64,000 nt of DNA from Luteimonas endophytica (GTDB lineage Bacteria > Pseudomonadota > Gammaproteobacteria > Xanthomonadales > Xanthomonadaceae), in NCBI RefSeq assembly GCF_029887875.1, contig NZ_JARXRM010000025.1, positions 62,001-126,000 of the forward strand, read 5' to 3'. The position numbers were made by a program, and so were the translations under genes. How positions within the stretch are numbered: the stretch's first letter is position 1; the number at the start of each line of letters is the position of its first letter. The notes under the pieces are model-generated. The model did not search any database, was not told the DNA's origin, and saw only the letters and a program-made list of their open reading frames with translations. Of this stretch, positions 9,517-36,165 are shown one piece after another.

Positions 9517-9564
9517 ACCCAATATTTCGCGTTGACGTGGCATCCCGGCCCCACTATCTTGTGG
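9517..9564 (+). promoter_or_regulatory. Pair of NrdR-like boxes upstream of nrdA
   Basis: The 16-mers at 9517-9532 (ACCCAATATTTCGCGT) and 9549-9564 (CCCCACTATCTTGTGG) match the NrdR box consensus acaCwATATaTwGtgt at about 12 and 11 of 16 positions, counted by eye, including the central C-w...T-A-T and late G. They are separated by 16 bp, the helical phasing usual for NrdR box pairs. They straddle the -35/-10 elements of the nrdA promoter, as expected for repression by NrdR in response to dATP/ATP. Confidence 0.6.
9532..9560 (+). promoter_or_regulatory. Sigma-70 promoter of the nrd operon
   Basis: TTGACG at 9532-9537 and TATCTT at 9555-9560 are separated by exactly 17 bp. Transcription would start near 9567, just where the cobalamin riboswitch begins. 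The two NrdR-like boxes overlap it. Confidence 0.65.
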
Positions 9565-9566
9565 CC

Positions 9567-9768
9567 GTCGGTTCCGGCGGCGGCTATCCGCCGGATGAAA
9601 AGGGAAGCCGGTGACGCCCCGTCCAGCCTGGATGGCGGCCAGTCCGGCACTGCCCCGCAGCGGTAATCGGGAACGACCCCGCCACACAGCACTGAGGCCC
9701 TAACCTCGGGAAGCGGCGGATCAGGTGAAGGCTCGCGCCTTCGTGCCCGTGAGTCCGAAGACCTGCCG
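9567..9768 (+). promoter_or_regulatory. Cobalamin (AdoCbl) riboswitch upstream of nrdA
   Basis: Contains the conserved elements in order: GGTTCC opening, AAGGGAAGCCGGTG (9600-9613), TCCGGCACTGCCCCGCAGCGG (the B12 box region, about 9643-9663) followed by TAA, GGGAACGACC, CACTGAGGCCC, CGGGAAGCGGCGGATCAG and the closing GTGAGTCCGAAGACCTGCC (9750-9768). Adenosylcobalamin binding normally switches off the downstream gene, here nrdA. That is the known logic where a B12-dependent class II reductase can replace the class I enzyme. No standard Rho-independent terminator follows; the expression platform must lie in the 245 bases before nrdA. Confidence 0.93.
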
Positions 9769-9966
9769 ACGGCCGCGCGAAGCACGACGCGCGGTGCCGG
9801 CTGCGGAATCTCCGGGGGGAGATGGCTGGCGAAGCGGACGCGCGCGGCCGTTCCTCCGGGAGCCCGTCGCGGGCCCTGCGACGCCGCTTTCCCATCCTGC
9901 GAAGAGACCGCTCGCCCGCGGGGGCGGGGCCGCGACGACGTTCGCGCCGTCGTGCCTCGCTCCCGT

Positions 9967-9988
9967 GCCGCCTGCGCGGGCAGGCGGC
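9967..9988 (+). other. Hairpin between the riboswitch and the nrdA ribosome-binding site
   Basis: GCCGCCTGC (9967-9975) and GCAGGCGGC (9980-9988) form a perfect 9-bp stem with a GCGG loop. It ends 12 bases before AGGAG (10001-10005), the Shine-Dalgarno of nrdA. There is no U-tract. It may be part of the riboswitch expression platform, either as a switching helix that governs access to the ribosome-binding site or as a stop for a Rho-dependent mechanism. The rest of the leader 9769-10012 holds no gene I can support. Confidence 0.45.
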
Positions 9989-10012
9989 TGTGCGTCATGC
10001 AGGAGTCCATCC

Positions 10013-12415
10013 GTGTCCCAGACCGAAGCCGCCGCCGCCGGCGACACCCCCGCCATCGTGCAGGATCCATCGTTCCTGCTCACCCCGCCGCCCACCGCCA
10101 CCGCGATGCGCGTGACCAAGCGCAACGGCGGCCGCGAGGCGGTCGACCTCAACAAGATCGTGCGCGCGGTGCAGCGCTGCTGCGAGGGCCTGCACGCGAT
10201 CGACCCGATGCGCGTGGCCACGCGCACCATCTCCGGGCTGTACGACGGCGCCAGCACCCGCGAGCTCGACGAGCTGTCGATCCGCACCGCCGCGCTGTTG
10301 ACCGCCGAGGAGCCGGAGTACAGCCGCCTGGCCGCGCGCCTGCTGGCCAACGTGATCGGCAAGGAGGTGATGGGCCAGGAGATCCACGCGTTCTCGCAAT
10401 CGGTGGCGCGCGGACACGAGCTGGGGCTGATCAACGATCGCCTGCTCGATTTCGTGCAGACCAACGCGCGCAAGCTCAACGACGCGATCGACCCGGCCCT
10501 GGACATGGGCTTCGACTACTTCGGCCTGCGCACCCTGTACGACCGCTACCTGCTGCGCCATCCGCACGCGCGCAAGGTGATCGAAACCCCGCAGCAGTTC
10601 TTCATGCGCATCGCCTGCGCGCTGAGCGAGGACGTGCCCGAGGCCCTGGCGCTGTACCGGCGCATGGGCCAGCTGGACTACCTGCCGAGCTCGCCGACGC
10701 TGTTCAATTCCGGCACCACCCACGAGCAGCTGTCGAGCTGCTTCCTGCTCGATTCGCCCCGGGACACCCTGGAGTCGATCTACCAGCGCTACGGCGACAT
10801 CGCCCAGCTGTCCAAGTTCAGCGGCGGCATCGGCGTGTCGTTCACCCGGGTGCGCTCGCGCGGCTCGCTGATCCGCTCCACCAACGGCCATTCCAACGGC
10901 ATCGTGCCGTGGCTGAAGACCCTGGATTCGTCGGTCTCGGCGGTCAACCAGGGCGGGAAGCGCAAGGGCGCGGCCTGCGTCTACCTGGAACCCTGGCACG
11001 CCGACGTCGAGGAGTTCCTGGAGCTGCGCGACAACACCGGCGACGACGCGCGCCGCACCCACAACCTCAACCTGGCCAACTGGATCCCGGATCTGTTCAT
11101 GCAGCGCGTCGAGGCCGACGCCGAATGGTCGCTGTTCGATCCGCGGGTGGTGCCGGAGTTCGCCGATCTGTACGGCGAGGCGTTCGAGCGCGCCTACGTG
11201 CAGGCCGAGCAGCAGGGCAAGGCGGTGCGCACGGTGCGCGCGCGCGAACTCTACGCGCGGATGATGCGCACCCTGGCGCAGACCGGCAACGGCTGGATGA
11301 CCTTCAAGGACACCTGCAACCGCGCCGGCAACCAGACCGCCAAACCCGGCAACGTGATCCACCTGTCGAACCTGTGCACCGAGATCCTCGAGGTCACCTC
11401 GGCCGAGGAGACCGCGGTGTGCAACCTCGGCTCGATCAACCTGGCGCGGCACTTCGACGAGGACGGCCGCTTCGACTTCGAGCGCCTGGCCGAGACCGTG
11501 CGGCTGGCGGTGCGGCAGCTGGACCGGGTGATCGACCTCAACTACTACCCGATCGAATCGGCGCGCCGCGGCAACCTGCGCTGGCGCCCGGTGGGGCTGG
11601 GCTGCATGGGCCTGCAGGACGTGTTCTTCCGCCTGCGCCTGCCGTTCGACGGCGCGGCCGCGCGGGCGCTGTCGGCGCGAATCGCCGAGGAGATCTACTT
11701 CCACGCCCTGGACGCGTCCTGCGAGCTGGCGCTCGAGCGCGGCCGCCACCCCTCCTTCGCCGATACCCGCGCCGCCGCCGGGAAGCTCCAGTTCGACGCC
11801 TGGGACGCCGCGCCGGCGGACCCCGGCCGCTGGAACGCGCTGCGTGCGCGCATCGCCGAGCATGGCCTGCGCAATTCGCTGCTGATCGCGATCGCCCCGA
11901 CCGCCACCATCGCCTCGATCGCCGGCTGCTACGAATGCATCGAGCCGCAGGTGAGCAACCTGTTCAAGCGCGAGACCCTGTCCGGGGACTTCCTGCAGGT
12001 CAACCGCTATCTCGTCGGCGAACTCAAGCAGCTGGGGCTGTGGACCCCGGAGATGCGCGATGCGATCAAGCAGGCCGAGGGCTCGGTGCAGGGGATCGCG
12101 GAGATCCCGGAGGTGCTGCGCGCGATCTACCGCACCGCCTGGGAGCTGCCGATGCGCGCGCTGATCGACATGGCCGCCGAGCGCGGCGCGTTCATCGACC
12201 AGGGCCAGTCCCTCAACCTGTTCATGGAGAACCCACGGATCGGCGCGCTGTCGTCGATGTACATGCACGCCTGGAAGCGGGGCCTCAAGACCACCTACTA
12301 CCTGCGCTCGCGGCCCGCCACCCGGATCGCCAAGGCCACCGTTGACGCGGCCGCGCCGGAGCAGGCGATAGCCTGTTCGCTGGAGAACCCGGAAGCCTGC
12401 GAGGCCTGCCAGTGA
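10013..12415 (+). CDS. nrdA: Ribonucleoside-diphosphate reductase class Ia, alpha subunit
   Basis: 800 residues from GTG 10013, seven bases after the Shine-Dalgarno AGGAG. An ATP-cone lies at the N-terminus (VTKRNGGREAVDLNKI, from about residue 29), the site for dATP/ATP activity control. The catalytic barrel has LSSCFLLDS (substrate-reducing Cys), the radical-site NLCTEILEVT (Asn, Cys, Glu), the partner Cys in AVCNLGSINLA, and PTATIASIAG. The C-terminus ends in the shuttle dithiol CEACQ, which takes electrons from thioredoxin or glutaredoxin. It reduces NDPs to dNDPs with NrdB. Upstream open frame through the riboswitch is not coding. The operon continues with a KTSC gene and nrdB. Confidence 0.95.
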   Translation: MSQTEAAAAGDTPAIVQDPSFLLTPPPTATAMRVTKRNGGREAVDLNKIVRAVQRCCEGLHAIDPMRVATRTISGLYDGASTRELDELSIRTAALLTAEEPEYSRLAARLLANVIGKEVMGQEIHAFSQSVARGHELGLINDRLLDFVQTNARKLNDAIDPALDMGFDYFGLRTLYDRYLLRHPHARKVIETPQQFFMRIACALSEDVPEALALYRRMGQLDYLPSSPTLFNSGTTHEQLSSCFLLDSPRDTLESIYQRYGDIAQLSKFSGGIGVSFTRVRSRGSLIRSTNGHSNGIVPWLKTLDSSVSAVNQGGKRKGAACVYLEPWHADVEEFLELRDNTGDDARRTHNLNLANWIPDLFMQRVEADAEWSLFDPRVVPEFADLYGEAFERAYVQAEQQGKAVRTVRARELYARMMRTLAQTGNGWMTFKDTCNRAGNQTAKPGNVIHLSNLCTEILEVTSAEETAVCNLGSINLARHFDEDGRFDFERLAETVRLAVRQLDRVIDLNYYPIESARRGNLRWRPVGLGCMGLQDVFFRLRLPFDGAAARALSARIAEEIYFHALDASCELALERGRHPSFADTRAAAGKLQFDAWDAAPADPGRWNALRARIAEHGLRNSLLIAIAPTATIASIAGCYECIEPQVSNLFKRETLSGDFLQVNRYLVGELKQLGLWTPEMRDAIKQAEGSVQGIAEIPEVLRAIYRTAWELPMRALIDMAAERGAFIDQGQSLNLFMENPRIGALSSMYMHAWKRGLKTTYYLRSRPATRIAKATVDAAAPEQAIACSLENPEACEACQ

Positions 12416-12434
12416 GGCCGCAGCGGAGACAGCG

Positions 12435-12656
12435 ATGCAGCGCTACGCCAACCTCAGCGGCGACTCCGGCGTCCAGGCCTATGCCTTCACGCCGGAGTCG
12501 ATCCTGGTGAAGTTCCGCGGCTCCGAGCGCGTCTACGAGTACAGCCACGCCAGCGCCGGCCGCAGCAACGTCGCGCGCATGAAACGCCTGGCCGAGTCCG
12601 GCCGCGGCCTGTCCACCTTCATCAGCCGGCACGTCGCCGACCGCTACGTGCGCTGA
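12435..12656 (+). CDS. KTSC domain-containing small protein
   Basis: 73 residues lying between nrdA and nrdB, 19 bp after the nrdA stop. The sequence SGDSGVQAYAFTPESILVKF, then YEYSHASAG and MKRLAESGRGLSTFISRHV, matches the KTSC pattern (a conserved short beta-rich domain with Lys, Thr, Ser and Cys positions). Here Ser replaces some of those residues. No signal peptide, so it is cytoplasmic. Its position implies co-transcription with the reductase. KTSC domains are elsewhere fused to lysyl-tRNA synthetase or found alone, without a settled role. Family call is good; link to dNTP synthesis is inference from position. Confidence 0.78.
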   Translation: MQRYANLSGDSGVQAYAFTPESILVKFRGSERVYEYSHASAGRSNVARMKRLAESGRGLSTFISRHVADRYVR

Positions 12657-12690
12657 CCGGATCGACCCGATCCGGTCGGGCTGACAGCCC
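12657..12690 (+). other. Two tandem hairpins before nrdB
   Basis: CCGGATCG-ACC-CGATCCGG (12657-12675) is a perfect 8-bp stem that starts at the last base of the KTSC stop region. GGGCT-GAC-AGCCC (12678-12690) is a perfect 5-bp stem. AAGGAAAT follows, then the nrdB ATG 12703. There is no poly-T, so they are more likely mRNA-stabilising or processing elements that set the NrdA:NrdB ratio than terminators. Confidence 0.5.
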
Positions 12691-12702
12691 AAGGAAATCC
12701 CG

Positions 12703-13734
12703 ATGTCCAATCCCCCTTCCGGCACCCGCCGGCAGCTCCTGCTCGACCCCGGCTTCGAACTGACCCTGCGGCCGATGCGCTATCCGCAGTTCTACGAGAT
12801 GTACCGCAACGCGATCCGCAACACCTGGACCGTGGAGGAGGTCGACTTCTCGCTCGACACCCGCGACCTGGCGCACAAGGTCGGCCCGGCCGAGCGCCAC
12901 CTGATCGAGCGGCTGGTGGCGTTCTTCGCCACCGGCGACTCGATCGTTTCCAACAACCTGGTGCTCAATCTCTACCAGCACATCAACGCGCCGGAGGCGC
13001 GCATGTACCTGTCGCGGCAGCTGTACGAGGAGGCGCTGCACGTGCAGTTCTACCTCACCCTGCTCGACACCTACCTGCCCGACCCGGAGGCGCGGGCGAA
13101 GGCCTTCGCCGCCACCGAGAACATTCCCTCGATCCGCCGCAAGGCCGAGTTCTGCTTCAAGTGGATCGATTCGATCCAGGAACTGGAGCGGATCGAGACC
13201 CCGGAGCAGCGGCGCCGGTTCCTGCTCAACCTGGTGTGCTTCGCCGCCTGCATCGAGGGCCTGTTCTTCTTCGGCGCGTTCGCCTACGTGTACTACCTGC
13301 GCTCGCGCGGGCTGCTCAACGGCCTGGCCGCCGGCACCAACTGGGTGTTCCGCGACGAGAGCTGCCACATGGCCTTCGCCTTCGAGGTGATCCGCACCGC
13401 GCGCGAGGAGGAGCCCGGCCTGGTCGACGAGGCGTTCCGCCGCCAGGTGGTGGAGATGCTGTGCGAGGCTGTGGACTGCGAGGTGGCGTTCGCCGAGGAC
13501 ACCCTCTCCGGCGGCGTGGCGGGGCTGTCGCTCCGCGACATGCGCGAATACCTGCAGTACTGCGCCGACCAGCGCCTGGCGCAGCTCGGCTTCGCGAAGC
13601 ACTTCGGCGCGCGCAACCCGTTCGGCTTCATGGACCTGCAGGACGTGCAGGAGCTGACCAACTTCTTCGAGCGGCGGGTGTCGGCCTACCAGGTCGGGGT
13701 GCAGGGCGAGGTGGCGTTCGACGAGGCGTTCTGA
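12703..13734 (+). CDS. nrdB: Ribonucleoside-diphosphate reductase class Ia, beta subunit
   Basis: 343 residues, a ferritin-like all-helical protein. The di-iron ligands are visible: YEEALHVQFY holds Glu110 and His113 with the radical Tyr117 four residues later, CIEGLFFFGAF holds the second-helix Glu, and FRDESCHMAF holds the Glu-x-x-His pair. Keeping the tyrosine marks it as a radical-generating R2 rather than a Tyr-less (class Ic) form. The C-terminus ends in a short acidic/aromatic tail (GEVAFDEAF) of the kind that docks on NrdA. The Shine-Dalgarno AAGGA precedes ATG 12703. It shares the riboswitch and NrdR-like boxes upstream of nrdA. Confidence 0.94.
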   Translation: MSNPPSGTRRQLLLDPGFELTLRPMRYPQFYEMYRNAIRNTWTVEEVDFSLDTRDLAHKVGPAERHLIERLVAFFATGDSIVSNNLVLNLYQHINAPEARMYLSRQLYEEALHVQFYLTLLDTYLPDPEARAKAFAATENIPSIRRKAEFCFKWIDSIQELERIETPEQRRRFLLNLVCFAACIEGLFFFGAFAYVYYLRSRGLLNGLAAGTNWVFRDESCHMAFAFEVIRTAREEEPGLVDEAFRRQVVEMLCEAVDCEVAFAEDTLSGGVAGLSLRDMREYLQYCADQRLAQLGFAKHFGARNPFGFMDLQDVQELTNFFERRVSAYQVGVQGEVAFDEAF

Positions 13735-23707: not shown

Positions 23708-24064
23708 CTATCGCGGCGCTCCGCCGGCCGGCCCTGCGCCGTCGTCGGGACCGGCGGGCGCCTCCGGCACGTACACCATGCGCCCGTCGGCCAGGCGGTA
23801 GGCGACCCCGGCCTTGACGCCCTCGCCCTCGCCGATCTCGCCGCTGGACTGATACTCGCGCAGCTCCTCGCCGTCCTTGACCAGCATCCGCATGTCGGCC
23901 TGGCCCGGATTCTCGATCACGACCACCGACCTGTCGGAGAACGGGTTCAGCGGATTGCTGACGATGACGATCATCAGCACCGCGATCACCAGCAGGAACA
24001 GGTCGACCAGGTTGACCACCGACAGGATCGGGTCGTCGTGCTCGTCGGTCTCGAGGAAGCGCAT
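23708..24064 (-). CDS. DUF2149 protein, ExbD-like topology (HmuV-like)
   Basis: 118 residues. A short cytoplasmic N-terminus precedes one membrane helix (VVNLVDLFLLVIAVLMIVIV, about residues 16-36), which has an Asp at its start as in ExbD/TolR. A small periplasmic domain follows (VIENPGQADMRMLVKDGEEL). This is the DUF2149 family, found as the last gene of HmuR/S/U/V-type loci. Its start overlaps the ExbB-like stop by one base (TGATG). It probably pairs with the ExbB-like protein to form a proton-driven motor. The last 20 residues are Pro/Gly/Ala-rich and of low information. Confidence 0.8.
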   Translation of the reverse strand: MRFLETDEHDDPILSVVNLVDLFLLVIAVLMIVIVSNPLNPFSDRSVVVIENPGQADMRMLVKDGEELREYQSSGEIGEGEGVKAGVAYRLADGRMVYVPEAPAGPDDGAGPAGGAPR

Positions 24065-24555
24065 CACGCCGCCGCTCCGCCCTGCGCCGCCTGCGTGCGC
24101 TCGATCGCCACCAGTTCCTGCAGCAGCCAGCGCCGGCGCACGGTCAGGACCAGGAACGCGATCGAGGCGCTGACCAGGGCCAGGATCACCGAGGAGAACG
24201 CGACCACCAGGTGCTCGCCGACGCCGGCGGCGTCGTTGCGGGTCAGCGCCAGCAGCGCCGGCCCCATCGGGATCATGGTGGCGACCAGGCCGAGCATCGG
24301 CGCGCTGCGCGCGGTGATGCGCAGCCATTCGAGCTGGCGCATGACCCACAGTTCCAGTTCGGCGGAGCTGGCGCCGGTGGCGGCGTGATGCGCGGCCAGC
24401 GGCGAGCGGTAGCCGCGGCCGCGGCGCTGCCAGCCCTCGACGGCGAACGCGCCCAGGGCGATGAAACTGTAGGCCAGCGCCAGCACCACCAGCACCAGCA
24501 CCGGGACCAGGAAGACGTGCGCGAGCTGGTACAGGGCGGATTCGAAACCGTTCAT
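24064..24555 (-). CDS. MotA/TolQ/ExbB-like proton channel protein (HmuU-like)
   Basis: 163 residues with three hydrophobic helices: about 16-40 (VLVLVVLALAYSFIALGAFAV), about 83-105 (APMLGLVATMIPMGPALLAL) and about 113-135 (LVVAFSSVILALVSASIAFLV). The segment ARSAPMLGLVATMIPMGPAL matches the conserved ExbB/TolQ core. ATG 24555 overlaps the chelatase stop (ATGA). With the DUF2149 protein it would form an inner-membrane proton channel. Here the natural partner is the periplasmic chelatase or the TonB receptor encoded upstream, not a flagellar motor. Confidence 0.83.
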   Translation of the reverse strand: MNGFESALYQLAHVFLVPVLVLVVLALAYSFIALGAFAVEGWQRRGRGYRSPLAAHHAATGASSAELELWVMRQLEWLRITARSAPMLGLVATMIPMGPALLALTRNDAAGVGEHLVVAFSSVILALVSASIAFLVLTVRRRWLLQELVAIERTQAAQGGAAA

Positions 24556-27500
24556 CGATGACTCCGGAGAGGACGTGGGGGACGGGCCTGGCGCCAGCCG
24601 CCGAGGCCGGCGCAGGCGAGCAGCAGCAGGCCGCCGAGCCAGGCCTGCCAGGGCGGCTCGGCCGGCGCCGCGTGCGCGACCTCCTGCATGACCCGGCCAC
24701 GCACGGTCGCCGGTTCTGCGGATTCCGCGGCCGCAGGTTCGGATTCGGACTCGGACGCGGGCGGCGCAGCGTCGACCTGCGCGGGCGCTGGCGGGGACGC
24801 AGCGGCCGCTCGCGGCGCCGCCGCGTCCAGCCCGAAGCCGCCCGCGATCCGCTCGATGAACTCGCGGGTGACGCGCGCGCCGGCATCGCCGCCGTGTTCG
24901 GCGGTCAGCGCCTGCCAGCGCTGCGCCAGCTCGCGCCGGGTCTGCGCGTCCGCCTGCCAGTAACCCTTGCGCACCGCCTCCATCATCCGTTCGATCAGCT
25001 GCGCCTGCGCGGTCGGGTTGTGCCGCTCGAACCATTCATCGATGCCGAGTTCGCGCTTGTCGAGCACGTAGGTCTCGTGCATCGCCTGCCACTGGTCGGC
25101 GCGCACGGTGCCGGGCGCGGTGGCCTGCCAGCCGAACAGGTTGTTGGCGACGTCGAGCACCTGCAGCGTGCCGGCGTAGCCTTCCTGCTGCATGGCGCCG
25201 ATCCACTGCGGGTTGAGGTAGCGGCTGCGCAGCTCGGTGGAGAGGAACTCGGCGGCGGTGGTGGTACGCGCCGCGGCCGCACGCAGGTCGCTGACGTACA
25301 GCGCCGGCGTGCTGCCGTCGACGTGGCGCATCGCCATCGACAGCCCGCCCATGTACTCGAACACGTGGTCGGTGTTGAGCGCGCCGTACACGTTCGACGA
25401 GCGCGGCAGCACCACGCCGTCGGTACCGGCCAGATGCGCGGCCAGCAGGTTGCCGTCCTCGCCGCCGGAAGTGCCCCAGTCGCCGCCGCCGTAGCCGTAC
25501 TGCAGCCGGGCCAGGAACTGCTCGGCCAGCGGCGTCTCGCTGTCCCAGCCGGTCGAGTCCATCACCTTGTCGGCCAGGTCGGTGCCGTAGTCGCCCGGGG
25601 CGTTGCCGAACATGCGCAGGCGGGAGAGCGCTGCGGCACGTTCGGCGTCGAGGCCGCGTTCCACCAGCGCCGCCGCGATCCTGCGGCTGTTGGCGGCGAT
25701 CGCGTTGCCGGGCTCGTCCAGCCGGGCCAGCTGCTGCAGGGCGGCGTCGAGCTTGCGCATGAAGCCGTCGAACTGGTCGCGATAGCTGCCGGTCACCTGC
25801 ACCACCACGTCGATGCGCGGGCGTCCCAGCTCGGCCTGCGGCACGATCTCGATCCGCTCGACGTCGCCGCCCGCGCTCCACACCGGCCGCAGGCCGGCCG
25901 CGTGCAGCACCTGCGCCTCGACCACGCCGAGGTGGCGCACGGTCTCGACCGACCACATCACGAAGGTCAGCTTGTCCGGCGCGGCGCCGCCGTGCGCCTG
26001 GCGATGGGCGGCGAGCAGCTGCCCGAAGGCCTCCCCGCCCGCCTCCCAAGCCGCGCGGGTCGGGATCCTGTCGGGGTCGAACGCATACAGGTTGCGGCCG
26101 CTCGGCACCTCGGGACTGCGCACCGGATCGCCGCCTTCGCCGGGCCGCACGAAACCGCCGCGCAGGCCCGCCAGCAGCGCCTCGATCTCGCCGGTCTCGG
26201 CCAGGCGGCGGTCGCTGGCGATCGCGCACTCGATCTGTTCGCGCAGCGCCGGGTCGGCGATGGCCTGCGGCGACTCGCCGCCGCGCAGGTAACGCTGCAG
26301 GAATCGGTACGGCTTGCTCGCCTGCAGCTTGCCGAAGTCGTCGGCGAACACTTCCTGCGGGTCGAGGCCGAGCGCGGCGTAGTAGTCGTCGCCCAGCTGC
26401 TGCATCACCGTCGACAGCCGGTGCTCCGGTGCGGCCGGCGTGCCGAACACGTGCAGGCCGAGCGGGATGGCGCTGCGCGCGAGCTGGTGCAGATGGTCGT
26501 GCAGGGCGCCGAAGAAGCCCTCGAAATCGGCCTCGATCGCGGCTTCCGACCAGCCGATGTCGGCATGCAGGTCCTGCGCGACCACCGCCTCGCGCAGGCG
26601 GCGCATGGCGGTTTCGCGCACCGGCCCCGGGTCGGTCATCTGGTACTCGTGGACCAGGTGATGCAGGTCGCGCAGCTCGTCGTAGAGGCCGGCCGGCGCG
26701 AACGCCGGGGTCTGGTGGCTGACCAGCACCGCACGGCCGCGGCGCTTGGCCTGCACCGCCTCGCCGATGTTGTCCTGGATGTAGGGATAGAACACCGGCA
26801 GGTCGCCGATCGCGATGTTCGGCCAGTCGAACGCCCACAGGCCGCGGTCCTTGCCCGGCAGCCATTCCTGGGTGCCGTGGGTGCCGAAGTGGATCAGCGC
26901 GTGCGGGTCGTGCTGCAGGCGCAGCCACAGGTAGGCGGCCAGGTACGCGTGCGCCGGCGGCACCGCGCCGTCGTGGGTGGCCACGCCGTACTCGCCGGCC
27001 CGCGGCGGCTGCGGCAGCACCGCCAGTCCGCCGAGCCGCCAGCGCGGGATCGCGAACGCGCGCACGCCGTCGACCGTGATCACCGCACGGCTGTCGGCCG
27101 GATCGCCCCAGCTTTCCAGCAATGCCTCGCGCTGCCGGGCCGGCAGGGTCCGCAGCCAGCGTTCGTACTCGGCCAGCGGCAGGGTGGCGGCGAGACCGCG
27201 TTCGACCAGGCCGGGCAGGGTCTCGGGCCGGTACCAGCCGGCCAGCATCGCCTGTCCGGCCTCGATCACCTGCGCCTCGCCGGTCGCGGCGACCGGATAG
27301 CCGGCCCCGGCCAGCGCGGCGGTCACGTCGGCCACGCTGCGCGGCAGGTTGAGCTGCGAGGCGGACAGGTTGCGCTCGCCGTGCGGGTAGTTCCAGAACA
27401 TCAGCGCCAGGCGCTTGTCGGCGGCGGCCGTCGCGCGCAGCCGCGCCAGCGACGCCAGCTTGTCGGCCAGCAGCTCGACCTGTTCGGGAATCGGTACCGG

Positions 27501-28487
27501 CTCGCCGTCCTCGACCGCGGCCAGCACCACCGGATCGCTCATGCCCCAGCTCTCCGGCACCGCCAGCAGGGTCGCCATCGCCGCGGCGCTCATGCCGCTG
27601 GTTTCGCTGCGCCACGCCTCCACGGTGCTGCCGCGCGCGGTCGACGCGACCAGCGCCGGCACGTCGAGCGCGATGAAGTCGCGCAGACGCTGCTCGCCGT
27701 CGCCCAAGTGGGTCAGGTTGACCAGGGCGACGATGCCGGCGTCGCGCAATCCGTCCCTCAGTCCGTCGGGGTCGTCGCGCTCGAACCAGAGCGCGACCGG
27801 CACCAGGCCGCGTCGTTCGCTCGCGGCGATCAGCGCATCGACGTCCTTGAGCTGCATCGACGACAGCGCATGGCTGGAGATCACCAGCGCGACGCGGGCG
27901 CCGTCGGCGTGGCCGCGCCGGCGCTGCCAGTCGAGATAGGCCTCGAGCGTGGCGAACGGCTCGGCCGCCTCGGGATGGTAGTAGCCGGTCGCCGGCATCG
28001 GCACCGGCGGCGGCACCGCGGCGGTCGCCTCGCCGCGATGCCAGCGGCCGAGCCAGTCGAGCATGCGGCGGAAGTTGGTCTCGCCGCCCTGCCGGTAGTA
28101 CTCGGCCACGCGCCGCGCCCGTGCGGGTTCCAGTGCGTCGAAGGCGAGCGGGCCGCCGCCGATCGCGATCCAGGGCACGCCGCGCTCGGCCAGCGCCGGC
28201 GCGAGCAGCGCGCGCACGCGTTCGGCATGGCTGGCCACCGGCGTATCGACGATCACCAGGCCGCTCGCCGCCAGCCAGTCGCGCGGCTCGCCGGGCGGCG
28301 GCCGGTCGATCGACAGATAGACGACCCGCACGCCGTGCGCGCGGCCCCAGCGATCGATCTTCAGCGCCTTGCCCGGCAGGGTGAAGTCGGTGGTCACCAC
28401 CGTGACCTGCAGCGGTTCGGCGGCCTGCGCCGAACCCGTGCAGGCCAGTACGACCGCGAACAGCAGCCGGCGGAATGCCCCGGCCAC
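24552..28487 (-). CDS. Exported, membrane-anchored CobN-like chelatase (HmuS/BtuS-like)
   Basis: 1311 residues from GTG 28487, one base after the receptor stop. A Sec signal peptide (RRLLFAVVLACTGSAQA) starts it and a C-terminal membrane helix (WQAWLGGLLLLACAGLGGW, about 1284-1302) ends it after a Pro/Ala/Glu-rich linker, so the large domain faces the periplasm. The body is a full CobN/magnesium-chelatase H-subunit fold: HFGTHGTQEWLPGK, FYPYIQDNIGEA, FGNAPGDYGT, NVYGALNTDHVFEYMGG and NPQWIGAMQQEGYAG. Cytoplasmic CobN inserts cobalt into hydrogenobyrinate with ATP-driven CobST. There is no ATP in the periplasm and no CobS/CobT here, so insertion or removal of metal from an imported tetrapyrrole is more plausible than B12 synthesis. 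Substrate metal is unknown. Confidence 0.85.
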   Translation of the reverse strand: MAGAFRRLLFAVVLACTGSAQAAEPLQVTVVTTDFTLPGKALKIDRWGRAHGVRVVYLSIDRPPPGEPRDWLAASGLVIVDTPVASHAERVRALLAPALAERGVPWIAIGGGPLAFDALEPARARRVAEYYRQGGETNFRRMLDWLGRWHRGEATAAVPPPVPMPATGYYHPEAAEPFATLEAYLDWQRRRGHADGARVALVISSHALSSMQLKDVDALIAASERRGLVPVALWFERDDPDGLRDGLRDAGIVALVNLTHLGDGEQRLRDFIALDVPALVASTARGSTVEAWRSETSGMSAAAMATLLAVPESWGMSDPVVLAAVEDGEPVPIPEQVELLADKLASLARLRATAAADKRLALMFWNYPHGERNLSASQLNLPRSVADVTAALAGAGYPVAATGEAQVIEAGQAMLAGWYRPETLPGLVERGLAATLPLAEYERWLRTLPARQREALLESWGDPADSRAVITVDGVRAFAIPRWRLGGLAVLPQPPRAGEYGVATHDGAVPPAHAYLAAYLWLRLQHDPHALIHFGTHGTQEWLPGKDRGLWAFDWPNIAIGDLPVFYPYIQDNIGEAVQAKRRGRAVLVSHQTPAFAPAGLYDELRDLHHLVHEYQMTDPGPVRETAMRRLREAVVAQDLHADIGWSEAAIEADFEGFFGALHDHLHQLARSAIPLGLHVFGTPAAPEHRLSTVMQQLGDDYYAALGLDPQEVFADDFGKLQASKPYRFLQRYLRGGESPQAIADPALREQIECAIASDRRLAETGEIEALLAGLRGGFVRPGEGGDPVRSPEVPSGRNLYAFDPDRIPTRAAWEAGGEAFGQLLAAHRQAHGGAAPDKLTFVMWSVETVRHLGVVEAQVLHAAGLRPVWSAGGDVERIEIVPQAELGRPRIDVVVQVTGSYRDQFDGFMRKLDAALQQLARLDEPGNAIAANSRRIAAALVERGLDAERAAALSRLRMFGNAPGDYGTDLADKVMDSTGWDSETPLAEQFLARLQYGYGGGDWGTSGGEDGNLLAAHLAGTDGVVLPRSSNVYGALNTDHVFEYMGGLSMAMRHVDGSTPALYVSDLRAAAARTTTAAEFLSTELRSRYLNPQWIGAMQQEGYAGTLQVLDVANNLFGWQATAPGTVRADQWQAMHETYVLDKRELGIDEWFERHNPTAQAQLIERMMEAVRKGYWQADAQTRRELAQRWQALTAEHGGDAGARVTREFIERIAGGFGLDAAAPRAAAASPPAPAQVDAAPPASESESEPAAAESAEPATVRGRVMQEVAHAAPAEPPWQAWLGGLLLLACAGLGGWRQARPPRPLRSHR

Positions 28488-28488
28488 G

Positions 28489-30465
28489 TCAGAAGCTCAG
28501 GTCCAGGCCGACGTGGTAGCTGCGGCCGAGCTGCGGGTACGGGTATTGCAGGTCGACGCTGTCCTGGCGGGCGTCGCCGATGTTCTCGACCCCGCCGCGC
28601 AGGGTCAGCGCATCGCCGATCCGGTAGCTCAGCTCGAGCGCGTACAGCGTATCGGCGGGAACCGCGATCGCCGGCCCGCGGCTGGGATACTCGAGCTGGC
28701 TGCCGACGTACTCGGCGCGCAGGCGGCCGGTGAACGCGTCGACCGGCGTCCACGCCAGCGTGGCGGCGCCGCCGTGGTGGGAGCGCATCTCCAGCTTGCG
28801 GTCTGCGGTCTGGTCGCGGGCGTCGAGGTAGGTGTAGTTGGCCTCGAGCGCCAGCGTGTCGGCCAGGTCGACCGCGCCGGCCAGCTCGATGCCGGACAGG
28901 CGTGCGCGGTCGACGTTGCGGTAGGTGCGGATCTCCATCACCCCCGGCTGGCCGCAGCGTTCCACGCAGACGATCTCGATCAGGTCGCGCAGGCGGTTCT
29001 CGAACGCGGTCGCCTGCGCGTGCCAGCCGTCGCCGCGGACCTGCGCGGCCAGCTCGTAGGTGGTACTCACTTCCGGCCGCAGGTCCGGATTGCCGAACAG
29101 CTCGAGCAGGCCGGCGATGCTGGCGTAGTACTCCGGCGAGAGCTGCTTCAGCGTCGGCGCCTTGAAGCCGCGGCCGGCGCCGCCCTTGAACAACCAGCCG
29201 CCGCGTTCGTGCACCAGGTAGGCGCGCGGGCTGTGCTGGCCGCCGAAGCGCCGGTGGCGGTCGTAGCGGTCGCCGAGCACCAGGTCCCAGCCGTCGGCCA
29301 ACGTGATCTCGTCCTGCACGAAGACGGCGCGGTGGGTCGCCTCGTCCTCGCCCGCGTCGTTGACCAGGGCGTCTTCGAGCGATTCGCGCCGCCATTCGCC
29401 GCCGACGGTGACCCGGTGGCGTTCGCCGAACGTGCGCGCCAGGTGCCCGTCCGCGATCTCGTCGCGCAGGTGCTGCGGCCCGGTGGGCGTGCCGGGCGCG
29501 CGTTCGTTGACCTTGTCGAGGCTGGCGCGACTGAGCCGCAGGCCGCTCTCGCCCCAGCCCCAGCGGCCGCGGTGCGACAGCGCCCATTGCTCGCGGTCGA
29601 CTTCGTCGCGGGACTGGTAGATGTACGGGTTGCTGCCGCTCTGCAGGCCGTGCCGCACCCGTTCCTCGCGGCCGCCCAGCCAGCGCAGGTCGATGCGGTG
29701 GAACTCGCCCGGGGTCCAGCTCAGGGTGGCGCTGCCGCTGCCGGCGTCGCGCGCTTCGCGGCGGCTGGCGCCGGGCAACAGCGGGTCCGGCGTCTCGTCG
29801 GTCCGGCTGCGATCGGCGAACACGCTCAGGCCGAGGGTGTCGGCCACCAGCGGGCCGCCGGCATACACGGCCATCTGCCGGCGCGCGCCGCCGGCGGCAT
29901 CGGGCTCGCCGGCGTTGGCGCGCAGGCTGCCGCGCCAGGCATCGGTGGCGCTGCGGCTGATCACGTTGATCACGCCGCCCAGCGCCTCCGAGCCGTACAG
30001 CGACGACATCGGCCCGCGCACGATCTCGACCCGCTCGATCGCCTCGGCCGGCATCCAGCCCAGGTCGTAGTCGCTGTGCGCGATCGCGCCGATCGAACTG
30101 TTGACCCGCATGCCGTCGAGCAGGGTCATGGTGTAGCTGGGATCCATGCCGCGCACGCTGACCCCGCGACGGTCCAGGCCGATGCCGGTCAGGCCGATCC
30201 CCGGCTCGCCGCGCAGGGCGTCGGCGAGATCGTAGACCGGACGGGCGGCCAGCTCCTCGCGGGTGACCACCGACATCGACGCCGGCGCAGTGTCCAGGGT
30301 GCGCTCGCTGGCGGTGGCGGTGACCACCACCGCGTCGAGGTCGGTGGCGCCCGGGGTGGCCGTCTGGGCGGAGGCCTGCCCCGCCACGGCGGCGGCCAGG
30401 ACGAGGATGGAGGGGTGGTAGCGGGAGCTGATGCTGGAGCGCGCTGCGAGGTGGACGTGGGGCAT
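28489..30465 (-). CDS. TonB-dependent receptor of the chelatase operon (CirA/HmuR-like)
   Basis: 658 residues, an outer-membrane 22-strand barrel with a plug. Signal peptide about 1-34 (LVLAAAVAGQASA). The TonB box region is LDAVVVTATASERTLD. The plug runs from about 45 to 170 with IERVEIVRGPMSSLYGSEAL and GGVINVI. The barrel contains GFKAPTLKQL and FGNPDLRPE, resembling the FRAP/NPDL boxes of haem receptors but also found in siderophore and B12 receptors. It ends in SYHVGLDLSF with the terminal Phe needed for barrel assembly. ATG 30465 is chosen over a TTG at 30480. It is the first gene of the operon and lies 24 bp after a Zur-like box. Confidence 0.87.
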   Translation of the reverse strand: MPHVHLAARSSISSRYHPSILVLAAAVAGQASAQTATPGATDLDAVVVTATASERTLDTAPASMSVVTREELAARPVYDLADALRGEPGIGLTGIGLDRRGVSVRGMDPSYTMTLLDGMRVNSSIGAIAHSDYDLGWMPAEAIERVEIVRGPMSSLYGSEALGGVINVISRSATDAWRGSLRANAGEPDAAGGARRQMAVYAGGPLVADTLGLSVFADRSRTDETPDPLLPGASRREARDAGSGSATLSWTPGEFHRIDLRWLGGREERVRHGLQSGSNPYIYQSRDEVDREQWALSHRGRWGWGESGLRLSRASLDKVNERAPGTPTGPQHLRDEIADGHLARTFGERHRVTVGGEWRRESLEDALVNDAGEDEATHRAVFVQDEITLADGWDLVLGDRYDRHRRFGGQHSPRAYLVHERGGWLFKGGAGRGFKAPTLKQLSPEYYASIAGLLELFGNPDLRPEVSTTYELAAQVRGDGWHAQATAFENRLRDLIEIVCVERCGQPGVMEIRTYRNVDRARLSGIELAGAVDLADTLALEANYTYLDARDQTADRKLEMRSHHGGAATLAWTPVDAFTGRLRAEYVGSQLEYPSRGPAIAVPADTLYALELSYRIGDALTLRGGVENIGDARQDSVDLQYPYPQLGRSYHVGLDLSF

Positions 30466-30488
30466 CGAGGGGCCGGACAAGTAAGGTG

Positions 30489-30505
30489 ATGTTATAATAT
30501 ATCGT
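30489..30505 (-). promoter_or_regulatory. Zur-box-like palindrome upstream of the receptor/chelatase operon
   Basis: ATGTTATAATATATCGT matches 15 of 17 bases of the gammaproteobacterial Zur core ATGTTATAATATAACAT. It stands out as the only AT-rich stretch in a very GC-rich region and contains TATAAC/TATAAT-like -10 sequences, so a bound repressor would block the promoter of the minus-strand operon. Fur boxes differ (GATAATGATAATCATTATC), and this does not match one. Confidence 0.6.
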
Positions 30506-30844
30506 TAAACCGGCTAGAAGGGCATCCAGGCGGAGAGCGAACCTCAGCCCCCCGCAAAGACACCCCCGATCAGGGCATGGCGCTCGAATCGACGACCACA
30601 CGCTCGGCGTTGGACTCGCGCCGTCCAGCGCTTCCGCGGCCGCGTTCGGCGGACTCCTCCCACTCGAACGGCGCCCGGGCCCTGGGCCGACTGGCGATCT
30701 CCAGGCCCCGGTCGCGAGGCGTTGGCGGCGGGACCGCCACCCTCGCAGCCGCGGCGAGCGATGGCGACCGCATGTCCGGCCGGTCCCGGCCGGCGCACCC
30801 GACGGATGCACGCCGGCGGCGGCCGACCTGCTACACCTGCGTGC
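30506..30844. other. Spacer without a supported gene
   Basis: About 340 bases between the Zur-like box and the GIY-YIG gene. Short open frames here are GC artefacts with no family pattern or start signal. I see no terminator, repeat-family copy or RNA gene, and the only notable item is a weak hairpin GGCGG-GA-CCGCC near 30728. Confidence 0.5.
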
Positions 30845-33025: not shown

Positions 33026-36000
33026 TCAGAAGTCGGCCCGGATCCCCAGGCTGATGCGCCGGCCCGAACGCTCGTACATGGTCGGGAACGACGGATCCAT
33101 GGTGTAGCCACCGGTTTCCTCGTCGGTCATGTTGATGCCCTTCAGGGTCAGCTTGATGCTGTCGGTCAACCGGTAGCCGATGGACATGTCGAGCTGGCCG
33201 TAGGCGTCGCGCCAGATCGGGTACATGTTGTAGCCGATGGACTCGACGTACTCGTCCTTGTGGTTGTAGGACAGGCGCGCATCGAAGCGGTCGTTGTCGT
33301 AGTACAGGGTGACGTTGAAGGTGTTTTCGGCCAGGCCGGGCATCGGCGTGCCGATGCCCAGGTCCGATTCGCCGGCCAGCGAGCTGTCGAGCCTGGTGTA
33401 GTTGGCGTTGACGCCGAAGCCTTCGAGCGCGCCGTGCAGCATGGCCAGCGGCAACTGGGCGATCAGCTCGACGCCGTCCACCTCGTAGGACCCGTCGGCA
33501 TTCACCGGCTGGTACACGTCGAAGTCGTAGCGGCCGTTGAGCGTGCCGTTGGCGTTGTACACCGCCACGTCCTCGACCACCCCGGTCAGCGAGTTGACGA
33601 CCACGCCCTCGATCTTCTTGCGGAAGTACGACGCCGCCAGCAGGCCGCCGTTCTCGAGGTACTTCTCCAGGCCGATCTCCCATTGCCGGGCGGTGGTCGG
33701 CAGCAGGTCGGGGTTGCCGTCGGTGAAGCGGAACGAATTCCAGCTGGCGGTGCGCTTGTAGGCGATGTCGGTCAGCTGCGGGCGGATCAGGGTTTCCGAC
33801 GCCGCCGCACGCAGCAGCAGGCCGTCCGACAGCTCGGCGGTCATGTTCAGGCTGGGCAGGATGTCGTCGTAGCCGCCTGTCCTGGACACCGGCGAATCCG
33901 TGTAGCCGGTGGTGCCGTCCGCGTTCTGCACCGGGTGGTAGCCGAAGGACAGCACCGCGGTGTCGGAATAGCGCGCGCCGGCGTTCACCGACAGCGGCAC
34001 GCTGCCCAGGTCGAAGGCGAAATCGGCCATCGCGTAGAGGCTGGTCACCTCCTCGTCCACGCGGTAGTACTGGCCCTCGTCGAACGGGGTGGCGAAGCCC
34101 GGATAGCGAAAGGCGCCGCGGGCGTATTCGTTGGAGACCTGCCGCCAGTCCAGGTCCTTCACGCCGTACGCGCCGCCGGGGACGATGTCGCTGACCCATT
34201 GCAGCGGGCTGTCGGCCAGGGTGCGGGTGTCGACCCAGGAGGTGTCGCCGGCGGCCGGGCCGGTGATCTTGAGCTCGCCGTATTGGCGCTCCTTCGACTT
34301 GTCGGTATAGCGCGCGCCGAACTGCACGGTGCGCAGCGCCGGCAGGAACGCGAGGTCGAGCGCCTTGCTGAAATCGAGCTGCGCGGCGTACTTGTCGTCG
34401 GTCACCTGTTCCAGCGTGGTCTCGTAGGCCTCGAACAGGTACGCCTGCGGCGCGTCGTACATGTCGATGGTGCCGGGATTGTCGCTGGGGACGGTCTCGC
34501 CGCTGTTGCCGGTCCAGCGCGTGCGCGAGGGCGCATAGGCCACGTGTTTGAGGTTGGCGTAGTCGAGCGTCTTTTCCGCACCCGAGTAACCGAGCATCGC
34601 GTCGATTCCCCAGCTGTCGCCCTTCCAGTCCATCGCCACGCTGTACTGGCTGTAGTCGGTCCGGTTGATGCGTTCCTTGCTCAGGAACTCGTGCTGGGTG
34701 GCGGTGTAGGACACGTCGCGCAGCACGACCATGCCGTGCTCGGAGAGGGTGGTGGCGTCGTATTCGTGGATGGTCTCGAGCGTGCTGCGGCTGGAAGCGG
34801 AGTAGGCCGCGGCGTCGTACTCGTCCTCGGTGGTGTCGTAGCCGCCGATCATCGCGTCGAAGGTGAGGCTGAAGCGGTTGCTCGGCCTGTACTGGACCGA
34901 CGCGGTGGCGCCCCACTTGTCCTGGTCGTTGAGATAGACGCGGTCGCCGACCTTGTCCTGGAAGATGATGCGGCCGGTCTCGTCGCGGTCGGTGCGATCG
35001 CGCACGACGATGCCCGCATCGCGCTCGAGGACCTCGGCGGCCTGGCTTCCGCGCGGGTCCGACGCCTCCAGGAAGCGGAACATCGGCCGGAAGTTGATGC
35101 CCGAGGTGGAATCGGTGCGGTTGGTGCGCTCCGCCTTGGAGAAGGAGACCAGCGCGCCCCAGTCGCCCCGGGTGTCGCTGGCCAGGAACGACAGCCTGGG
35201 ATCGGTCTGCTCGGAGATCGAGTTGTAGGCGCCTTCCGCCGAGGCGACCAGCTTGCGACCGTCGTAGTCGAACGGGCGCGCGGTGGAGATCAGCACCGAA
35301 CCGGCGATGCCGCCCTCCTCGTCCGCGGCGGTGGGCGACTTCTGCACCGTCACCTGCTGGATGATCTCGGAGGCGAAGATGTCGAACTCCACGTCGCGCC
35401 CGCCGCTGCCCGAGGCCGTCGCCAGGTTGTTGATGGAGACGTGGGTGAACTCGGACGGCAGGCCGCGCACGTTGACCCGGGTGCCCAGGCCCTTGTTGCG
35501 TTCGATCGTCACGCCGGGCATGCGCTGCAGGGCCTCCGAGAGGTTCTGCTCGGGAAAGTCGGCGACGTCGGTGGCGACGATGGAGTCGGAGAACCCGATG
35601 TTCGACCGCTTGATGTCCACCGCCTGTTCGAGACTGCGGCTGTAGCTGCCGACCACCTGGACGCTTTCCAGTTCCTGCACGGGGGACAGCGCCTGCGGCA
35701 CCGCGGCGGCGCCCGGCGCGGCGCCCGGTACCGCCGGCGCCGGGGCCGGAGCGTCCATGGCACCCGCGGCCTCGATGGTCACGGTGGTCGCATTGAGATA
35801 GCGATGACGCAATCCCGTGCCGGCCAGCAGTCGCTTCAGGCCTTCCTCGGGCGGCAGGCCCGCGGGGATGGCGCGGGTCTCGGGGTTCCCGGCCGCCTGC
35901 GCGCCATAGACGAACTGCAGACCGGTCTGCCGCGACAGCGCGTTGAGCGCGCGGTCCAGGGGCTGCGACGCAATGGCCTCGGTCGCGACGCCGGCCTCCT

Positions 36001-36067
36001 GTGCGGTCGCGGTGGTGGTTGCGGCCTGCAAAGCCAGGGCGATCGAGAGAAACAGGATTCTGCGCAT
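33026..36067 (-). CDS. TonB-dependent receptor with STN signalling domain
   Basis: 1013 residues. Signal peptide about 1-23 (RRILFLSIALALQAATTTATA). An STN domain lies at about 30-95 (LDRALNALSRQTGLQFVY ... LAGTGLRHRYL), the part that contacts FecR. A Pro/Ala linker leads to the plug (ADFPEQNLSEALQRMPGVTIER, GLPSEFTHVSINN, VQKSPTAADEEGGIAGSV) of the TIGR01782-type (Xanthomonas/Caulobacter) subfamily. The barrel ends RRISLGIRADF. These receptors usually import glycans, phosphate esters or other organic nutrients rather than siderophores. With the sigma/FecR pair upstream and the PHP hydrolase downstream it forms a cell-surface-signalling uptake cluster. ATG 36067 is preferred to the upstream Met. 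Confidence 0.9.
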   Translation of the reverse strand: MRRILFLSIALALQAATTTATAQEAGVATEAIASQPLDRALNALSRQTGLQFVYGAQAAGNPETRAIPAGLPPEEGLKRLLAGTGLRHRYLNATTVTIEAAGAMDAPAPAPAVPGAAPGAAAVPQALSPVQELESVQVVGSYSRSLEQAVDIKRSNIGFSDSIVATDVADFPEQNLSEALQRMPGVTIERNKGLGTRVNVRGLPSEFTHVSINNLATASGSGGRDVEFDIFASEIIQQVTVQKSPTAADEEGGIAGSVLISTARPFDYDGRKLVASAEGAYNSISEQTDPRLSFLASDTRGDWGALVSFSKAERTNRTDSTSGINFRPMFRFLEASDPRGSQAAEVLERDAGIVVRDRTDRDETGRIIFQDKVGDRVYLNDQDKWGATASVQYRPSNRFSLTFDAMIGGYDTTEDEYDAAAYSASSRSTLETIHEYDATTLSEHGMVVLRDVSYTATQHEFLSKERINRTDYSQYSVAMDWKGDSWGIDAMLGYSGAEKTLDYANLKHVAYAPSRTRWTGNSGETVPSDNPGTIDMYDAPQAYLFEAYETTLEQVTDDKYAAQLDFSKALDLAFLPALRTVQFGARYTDKSKERQYGELKITGPAAGDTSWVDTRTLADSPLQWVSDIVPGGAYGVKDLDWRQVSNEYARGAFRYPGFATPFDEGQYYRVDEEVTSLYAMADFAFDLGSVPLSVNAGARYSDTAVLSFGYHPVQNADGTTGYTDSPVSRTGGYDDILPSLNMTAELSDGLLLRAAASETLIRPQLTDIAYKRTASWNSFRFTDGNPDLLPTTARQWEIGLEKYLENGGLLAASYFRKKIEGVVVNSLTGVVEDVAVYNANGTLNGRYDFDVYQPVNADGSYEVDGVELIAQLPLAMLHGALEGFGVNANYTRLDSSLAGESDLGIGTPMPGLAENTFNVTLYYDNDRFDARLSYNHKDEYVESIGYNMYPIWRDAYGQLDMSIGYRLTDSIKLTLKGINMTDEETGGYTMDPSFPTMYERSGRRISLGIRADF

Positions 36068-36165
36068 CGTGGATTCCAGTGGGGTGATGTCGGGCGCCGC
36101 GACGCAGGGGCGGTCGCGCATGCCTGGACTACGAGGGCCCGGAGCGGAGACCGGGCACCGCCTTT

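Follow-up and report, generated by a model that had tools for sequence, protein, structure and literature searches.

A four-gene operon of Luteimonas endophytica with a predicted Zur box and an exported HmuS-like chelatase that may be driven by an ExbB-like/DUF2149 proton motor

A 64,000-nucleotide stretch of the genome of Luteimonas endophytica (Xanthomonadaceae; contig NZ_JARXRM010000025.1, positions 62,001 to 126,000; hereafter the window) contains a four-gene operon encoding a TonB-dependent receptor (TBDR), an exported relative of the chelatase subunit CobN, an ExbB-like protein and a protein of the DUF2149 family, which together may form a metal-scavenging system whose chelatase is powered by a proton motor of its own. 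All four genes lie on the minus strand and run in this order from 30465 to 23708. The stop codon of the receptor gene is followed, after 1 nt, by the GTG of the CobN-like gene, whose stop shares ATGA with the ATG of the ExbB-like gene, and the stop of the latter shares TGATG with the DUF2149 start; these junctions and the Pfam matches bear out the tightly packed operon of the original prediction. The features are as follows (window coordinates).

30488..30506, no strand assigned: Zur-type box GATGTTATAATATATCGTT, ending 22 bp upstream of the receptor ATG
28489..30465, minus strand: TBDR with CirA-like barrel, ATG at 30465 (PF00593 and PF07715)
24552..28487, minus strand: exported CobN-like (BtuS/HmuS-type) chelatase, 1311 aa (PF02514, 971.5 bits)
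28422..28487, minus strand: signal peptide predicted for the CobN-like protein, roughly residues 1-22, with the cleavage (...SAQA-AEP) placed by eye
26877..26879, minus strand: His537 (HFGTHG), equivalent of HmuS His-538 by alignment column
25356..25367, minus strand: His1041 and Glu1044 (NTDHVFEYMGG), equivalents of HmuS His-1209 and Glu-1212 by alignment columns
24681..24704, minus strand: VRGRVMQE, residues 1262-1269 of the CobN-like protein, D-box-like candidate docking peptide closing a Pro/Ala/Ser/Glu-rich linker
24594..24641, minus strand: C-terminal membrane anchor of the CobN-like protein, residues 1283-1298, predicted from hydrophobicity
24064..24555, minus strand: ExbB/TolQ/MotA-like proton-channel subunit, 163 aa, three long helices (PF01618)
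23708..24064, minus strand: DUF2149 protein (HmuV-like), predicted ExbD-like topology with one transmembrane (TM) helix carrying an acid, then a periplasmic domain (PF09919, 91.5 bits)
24002..24004, minus strand: Asp21 in the DUF2149 TM helix, candidate proton-carrying residue (97 D and one E in 98 aligned rows)

The 4.19-Mb genome has a single PF02514 match and a single DUF2149 match, both in this operon, and the CobN-like protein covers positions 2-1089 of the 1090 of the PF02514 profile. The identical gene order occurs in five other genera of the family, so that the arrangement is not a chance one. The CobN-like gene is patchy there (6 of 149 drawn genomes, own included; none of the five other listed genomes of the same genus), and a class-wide draw gave 6 of 369, own included, which looks like horizontal spread or repeated loss. 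CirA-like models are the best NCBIfam ones for the receptor, every listed one being below its cut-off, and its mature N-terminus reads DAVVVTA, which we take to be a TonB box.

Both a signal peptide and a C-terminal anchor had been predicted for the CobN-like protein, and both are present, the signal clear (its hydrophobic segment scores 2.23) and the helix weak. We compared uncut CobN proteins encoded with a motor (52 bacterial, 18 archaeal) to eight CobN/BchH controls without one. A VWA partner gene is visible at five of the control loci (L012, L013, L014, L019, L126; L and G numbers are our labels of loci and genomes); the other three, presumably ATP-type, are two members of cob clusters (L125, L128) and BchH (L127). 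An N-terminal hydrophobic signal was found in 48 bacterial and 17 archaeal proteins and in no control; a C-terminal helix, at a Kyte-Doolittle cut-off of 1.4 over 18 residues, in 47 and 18, and again in no control. The window protein passes for the signal, and its anchor was accepted by position and by its relatives; the two predicted segments argue against a cytoplasmic location.

The best solved relative of this protein is HmuS (9d26, 452.9 bits), followed by CobN (7c6o, 359.5 bits), presumably that of M. tuberculosis. In HmuS His-538 and His-1209 are reported to coordinate and Glu-1212 to help, turnover needing His-538 (PMC12583661). The second site of HmuS reads LSLDHxxEFMGG, and our protein has the same DHxxE at 1040-1044; it has, as far as aligned columns can tell, an HmuS-class active site. 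Among 85 aligned proteins (15 of 91 CobN-like ORFs, shorter than 1000 aa, were left out of alignment and tree) DHxxE is found in 15: the window, five sister operons (L107-L111), L017, L112, L116, five Hmu proteins and the archaeal L082. A D/Q state occupies these positions in 29 bacterial and 15 archaeal motor-linked rows and in two control CobNs, and the remaining controls have S-D..A (three haloarchaeal), D-G..Q, D-D..D or, in BchH, D-H..D. H thus always goes with E and D with Q (15 HE, 46 DQ, none mixed, 24 rows in other states); the switch needs five changes on the tree, whose well-supported branches provide four independent pairs (sign test p 0.125), too few for the coupling to be significant. 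Four archaeal rows show F or Q at the His537 column, perhaps through misalignment. A FastTree tree of the 85 rows, the only kind made, sets motor-linked proteins apart from all eight controls (support 97) and groups the window with its five sisters (83) and with the Azospirillum protein L017 (100), in a clade separate from the Hmu proteins, whose exact placement is unsure because long branches meet there (Hmu with Planctomycetota).

CobN and ChlH depend on ATP-driven partners. The original prediction that CobS and CobT are missing agrees with profile searches of the whole genome, where CobT (PF06213) and CobS (TIGR01650) gave no match. A role as CobN in B12 synthesis was considered and is ruled out by this absence, by the active site and by the topology.

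The two small subunits have features of a proton channel. The ExbB-like protein scores 27.8 bits against PF01618 (cut-off 22.9), a PDB search with its profile matches MotA, ExbB and TolQ (best E 4.1e-4), and a fold search with its model (pLDDT 93.6) ranks ExbB/TolQ structures first (best E 5.9e-3, TMq 0.54; none below 0.001). Thr93 (95/95 rows) and Pro86 (94/94) are invariant in it, as is N18 of DUF2149 (98/98).

To see which partner this pair accompanies, we surveyed 80 DUF2149 loci (45 bacterial, 35 archaeal), the best 80 of 513 relatives; the search profile was built from four CobN-linked DUF2149 rows, so the sample is biased toward the CobN-linked kind. An ExbB-like gene adjoins DUF2149 in 43 of the 45 bacterial and 33 of the 35 archaeal loci. 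Other neighbours were counted at the 43 loci whose flanks reach 5 kb or more on each side (21 bacterial, 22 archaeal; 37 of the 80 left out), and the counts are not fully independent, since two archaeal pairs (L085/L091 and L089/L092) share assemblies. CobN adjoins DUF2149 in 21/21 bacterial and 16/22 archaeal loci; a receptor adjoins it in 16/21 and 0/22, and the membrane protein DUF2162 (HmuT) adjoins the motor in 9/21 and 22/22. The presence of the ExbB/DUF2149 pair follows that of the exported chelatase rather than that of a receptor.

Six archaeal DUF2162-ExbB-DUF2149 cassettes have no adjacent CobN (L060, L064, L065, L090, L092, L097), and all six genomes encode a CobN with C-terminal TM helix elsewhere, five with the strict juxtamembrane motif described below and one with a GKVM variant. 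More widely, all 14 queried archaeal genomes without local CobN, eight of them from short-flank loci, carry PF02514 elsewhere. In three genomes (G514, G522, G526) a tethered CobN occurs alongside a plain one; none of the three plain proteins (L132, L131, L134) has the helix, and one of them has a chance match to the motif. The module of ExbB-like protein, DUF2149 and CobN occurs in archaea and several phyla besides Bacteroidota. No fusion of motor and chelatase genes was seen among the scanned ORFs; one ORF (L101) matches both ExbB-like and DUF2162. A DUF2149-like stretch on a Paracoccus plasmid (L023, 4271-4555), possibly a remnant, has no annotated motor or chelatase neighbour.

What may connect motor and enzyme is found at the C-terminus of the latter. 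In motor-linked CobNs the linker from body to helix is Pro/Ala/Ser-rich and poorly alignable, and ends in V-x-G-x-x-[ML], often with Glu, Gln or Lys next (VRGRVMQE in the window, VEGFEMKE in Trichlorobacter, VEGYEMTK in Methanococcoides). The strict form [VILA].G..[ML] precedes the TM helix in 45 of 49 bacterial rows, window included (shuffles expect 5.8), and in 16 of 18 archaeal rows (shuffles expect 2.7; five rows cut by contig ends were left out), and in none of the eight controls; it starts 15-29 residues ahead of the helix in 44 of the 45 bacterial rows. The D-box of TonB is described as a hydrophobic-alternating strand captured by the ExbD dimer (PMC10907165), located 10-15 residues from the TonB helix (PMC10907165; PMC12905483). 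The V-R-G-R-V-M-Q of the window fits the D-box pattern save for Gly at the third place, and the tether resembles the D-box by analogy of position and kind, with no homology implied. Like the clients in ExbBD-TonB, TolQR-TolA and the vWA force transducers, systems with a proton-channel pair and its TM acid, the CobN-like protein would combine a TM helix, a disordered Pro-rich linker and a short near-membrane motif. It differs from them in being an enzyme and in its C-terminal anchor, which has neither His nor Ser, the SHLS/His motif of the TonB/TolA-type helix not being found there. A further difference is that no outer-membrane target would be needed if the archaeal copies work likewise, archaea being as a rule without an outer membrane.

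The metal is suggested by the promoter. The box at 30488-30506 is the genome's best match, with two mismatches, to the Zur pattern RNTGTTATANTATAACANY, which has the shape of the P. aeruginosa motif. Four palindromic places in the genome match it with at most three mismatches, and one place matches the reversed control. The P. aeruginosa Zur motif has been described as a 17-bp palindrome with free centre (PMC4542158). The 12-bp core ATGTTATAACAT, one mismatch allowed, has eight occurrences in the whole genomes of six carriers of the operon, and its reversed control has none. Five of the eight directly precede this operon; the others lie between the own genome's divergent receptor and a pair of substrate-binding protein and FecCD genes, between a MerC-like gene and a receptor that has a His-rich stretch and looks ZnuD-like, and ahead of a MerC gene. 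The sixth genome (G018) has a two-mismatch core before the operon, so that all five sister genera carry the core before the receptor ATG, with 0-1 mismatches in four and two in one. The distance from the box to a following ATG with which a signal peptide starts is 11-29 bp in each of the six genomes; in L109 and L111 this ATG is internal to a longer open frame. A second gene of the FUR family, which is presumably Zur, adjoins the own ZnuD-like/MerC locus, itself carrying a two-mismatch core. It would be logical to suggest that Zur binds here and that zinc is the regulating signal. Neither the Zur-type box nor the broad distribution of the module beyond Bacteroidota was part of the original prediction.

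Two observations were made along with this search. At L007 (own contig C8) a second-line Zur-type box (8233-8251) lies between a divergent TonB receptor and a periplasmic binding protein (PF01497) with a FecCD-like permease downstream, a set resembling P. aeruginosa PA2911-PA2914 as described. MerC-family membrane proteins stand repeatedly behind Zur-type boxes (L008 671-4066 on own contig C10, L120, L124, and L109 177-191; assigned through PF03203 in L008 and L124 and by look in the other two), twice beside ZnuD-like receptors, and are possibly inner-membrane zinc importers.

Some parts of this picture had been known: exported membrane-anchored BtuS/HmuS proteins, BtuS having been distinguished as a third, exported CobN type (PMC6460266), with Methanosarcina members discussed as haem-salvage enzymes (PMC10846266), and the place of PA1922-PA1925 in the P. 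aeruginosa Zur regulon. Expression of the latter genes rises 44- to 147-fold in a znuA mutant and increases when zinc is depleted, and binding of Zur to the PA1922 promoter has been seen in an electrophoretic mobility shift assay (PMC4542158, PMC8531726). Their description, a receptor, a CobN-like protein, an ExbD homologue, a hypothetical protein and a Zur site at the promoter (PMC4542158, PMC8531726, PMC11761036, PMC8456098), is close to our operon, with orthology across the two families judged from that description alone; PA1924 is taken there to energise the receptor and not the chelatase. The view that such modules are poorly described outside Bacteroidetes therefore stands only in part, for the Pseudomonas genes have been described as Zur-regulated and the module extends to archaea and several phyla; we found, in the open PMC literature, no paper presenting ExbB/DUF2149 as a chelatase motor or describing the tether, and the words "chelatase" and "CobN" were not found in a 2025 survey of periplasmic force transducers (PMC12204202).

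The hmuYRSTUV system of Bacteroidota (BtuS family) shares with the operon an exported, membrane-anchored PF02514 protein with the H538/H1209/E1212-type site and the ExbB-like and DUF2149 genes; it differs by acting on haem iron, by having HmuY and HmuT, and by the juxtamembrane motif, whose strict form was not found there. A second haem site (Met-79/His-254) and a Met-rich insertion are further features of HmuS. The CobNST cobaltochelatase and the ChlHID/BchHID magnesium chelatases have a homologous large subunit with the His537 position, and differ by ATP-dependent partners, by lacking signal peptide and C-terminal helix in our eight controls, and by a second site that is D/Q (two CobN) or H/D (BchH) as against H/E here.

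Our best model is that of a proton-driven periplasmic enzyme stripping metal, presumably zinc, from a carrier. The receptor, powered by the ordinary Ton machinery of the genome, would import into the periplasm a metal in chelated form, most likely zinc carried by a tetrapyrrole or a similar ring. There the membrane-anchored HmuS relative would hold the complex between His537 and His1041 and free the metal through distortion and protonation of the ring. By analogy to ExbD gripping the TonB D-box, the ExbB-like/DUF2149 motor may grip the chelatase through VRGRVMQE beside the C-terminal helix, and the proton-motive force would then provide conformational work, such as opening and product release, as the AAA+ partners CobST or ChlID do for cytoplasmic chelatases. 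To this whole reading, Zur-controlled metal scavenging by an exported HmuS-like chelatase with a dedicated proton motor, we give about an even chance. That the motor drives the enzyme, the core of the original prediction, has gained from the receptor-free archaeal loci with exported CobN and from a TonB-like tether not seen in the eight controls, and it keeps the standing of a proposal.

A number of observations weigh against this model. The anchor helix of the window, QAWLGGLLLLACAGLGGW, is weakly hydrophobic, with a Kyte-Doolittle value of 1.30 over 18 residues, below the cut-off. The motif pattern was framed after the tails had been inspected, its strict form is found in none of the five Hmu chelatases (a degenerate G.VMK-like form is visible by eye), and four of the 16 archaeal matches and one of the 45 bacterial ones sit 4-5 residues from the TM helix and probably belong to its edge; seven of the eight controls have tails of just 36-51 residues, therefore the whole region and not merely the motif is missing there. 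DUF2149 matches no Pfam ExbD model, only PF09919, and its model, a TM helix 12-36 followed by strands, is of low confidence (pLDDT 68, pTM 0.30). Zinc control is not common to the whole clade, as no Zur box was found before the operon in L112-L116, five proteobacterial orthologues that are less closely related. Purified HmuS is reported to perform 1-2 turnovers of haem with NADH and no motor, and not to need ATP (PMC12583661), and a btuS1 btuS2 double mutant of B. fragilis reportedly still frees PpIX from haem, in larger amount.

The partial activity of HmuS alone, and a receptor beside the pair in 16 of 21 bacterial loci, are also what one would expect if the chelatase works unaided and the pair is a spare ExbBD powering the operon's receptor through a TonB encoded elsewhere, as has been stated for HmuU/HmuV (PMC10100974, PMC12583661) and PA1924 (PMC4542158, PMC8456098); another source allows that HmuT/U/V "may affect" HmuS activity (PMC13227078). 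We regard this possibility as doubtful: CobN adjoins the pair in all 21 of these bacterial loci as against the 16 of the receptor, and archaea keep the pair with an exported CobN and no receptor in any of the 22 loci. In Trichlorobacter, moreover, a complete canonical exbB-exbD-tonB set adjoins the pair, in a cluster noted already in PMC3403914, and the genome of the window has five ExbD/TolR-family genes elsewhere, with ExbB-like neighbours; the window has no tonB match. The archaeal loci lend some weight to a different client, since DUF2162 is there a more constant neighbour than CobN (22/22 vs 16/22) and the motor could serve a permease, the chelatase merely feeding a DUF2162/HmuT-type protein or some other inner-membrane passage of metal. 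For the system as a whole this seems quite improbable, as DUF2162 was not found in 12 of the 21 bacterial loci, all with CobN, nor in the window or the five sister operons, and the conserved docking-like motif sits on CobN.

Concerning the substrate, haem or cobalamin had been suggested originally, and neither finds support in the promoter, which carries a Zur-type box and lacks a cobalamin riboswitch; because of that lack, control of the operon by cobalamin, which had been considered, is rejected. Rfam scans of the loci find a cobalamin riboswitch upstream and on the same strand in nine of 23 scanned D/Q bacterial loci (L020, L021, L027, L028, L029, L031, L033, L035, L047), some several kb from CobN, in none of nine scanned H/E loci (window, L107-L112, L116 and L017, where one lies downstream, after DUF2149), in none of five D/M or D/G and none of eight archaeal loci. 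The H/E count excludes the five Hmu loci and the archaeal L082, and the H/E to D/Q comparison gives a Fisher p of 0.035, not corrected for kinship. Hmu-like operons under riboswitch control had been described in Bacteroidota before (PMC10100974). Insertion or recovery of cobalt or corrinoid in zinc starvation, with cobalt replacing zinc, has been proposed for PA1922-PA1925 (PMC4542158, PMC11761036) and would agree with the family name and the riboswitches of D/Q relatives; for an operon with the HmuS-type H/E pair, in a genome where CobS and CobT were not found and in a window whose sole riboswitch precedes ribonucleotide reductase genes, we consider it improbable. That the operon is a proteobacterial hmu system taking iron from haem would be in line with HmuS as closest solved relative and with the same active-site pair, and is in our view very improbable given the Zur-type box (a Fur box was not searched for), the separate clade, and an operon without DUF2162/HmuT or any gene recognised as HmuY in the Pfam scan, which included no HmuY model.

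Three further observations belong here. The window's riboswitch, a cobalamin one at 9552-9784 on the plus strand (112 bits), lies ahead of genes for the large chain (with ATP cone) and small chain of a ribonucleotide reductase (9725-13734); this is probably a B12-independent enzyme under repression by B12. A second, distant TonB-receptor-like ORF (33026-36121, minus strand, 86 bits to the receptor profile) is found a few kb upstream of the operon. On a Runella plasmid (L015, 1-12379) a receptor, a NicO/DsbD-like protein (a weak match, below both cut-offs), an ExbB-like protein, DUF2149 and CobN lie within a hyp hydrogenase-maturation cluster, a hint of a nickel version of the module.

Taken more widely, we would put at slightly better than even the joint proposal that these are the first metal chelatases or dechelatases driven by proton-motive force, a bacterial and archaeal family in which an ExbBD-like proton motor, acting through a TonB-like C-terminal tether, has taken the place of the AAA+ ATP motor of the CobN/ChlH large subunit, and which has branches for zinc under Zur (here), haem iron (hmu), cobalt or corrinoid (the cobalamin-riboswitch loci) and possibly nickel (beside hyp genes). 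The problem addressed is how exported members of the CobN superfamily work without ATP, HmuS, the best studied of them, having managed so few turnovers on its own, and a dedicated proton motor, if the proposal is true, could explain the limited turnover of the purified protein and would be a new way of powering such enzymes. The chelatase would join the known clients of ExbB/TolQ/MotA motors, and the presence of a motor of this type in archaea would be accounted for. The proposal gives a testable role to DUF2149, PA1924/PA1925 and HmuU/HmuV, and ties zinc starvation to tetrapyrrole-like metal carriers.

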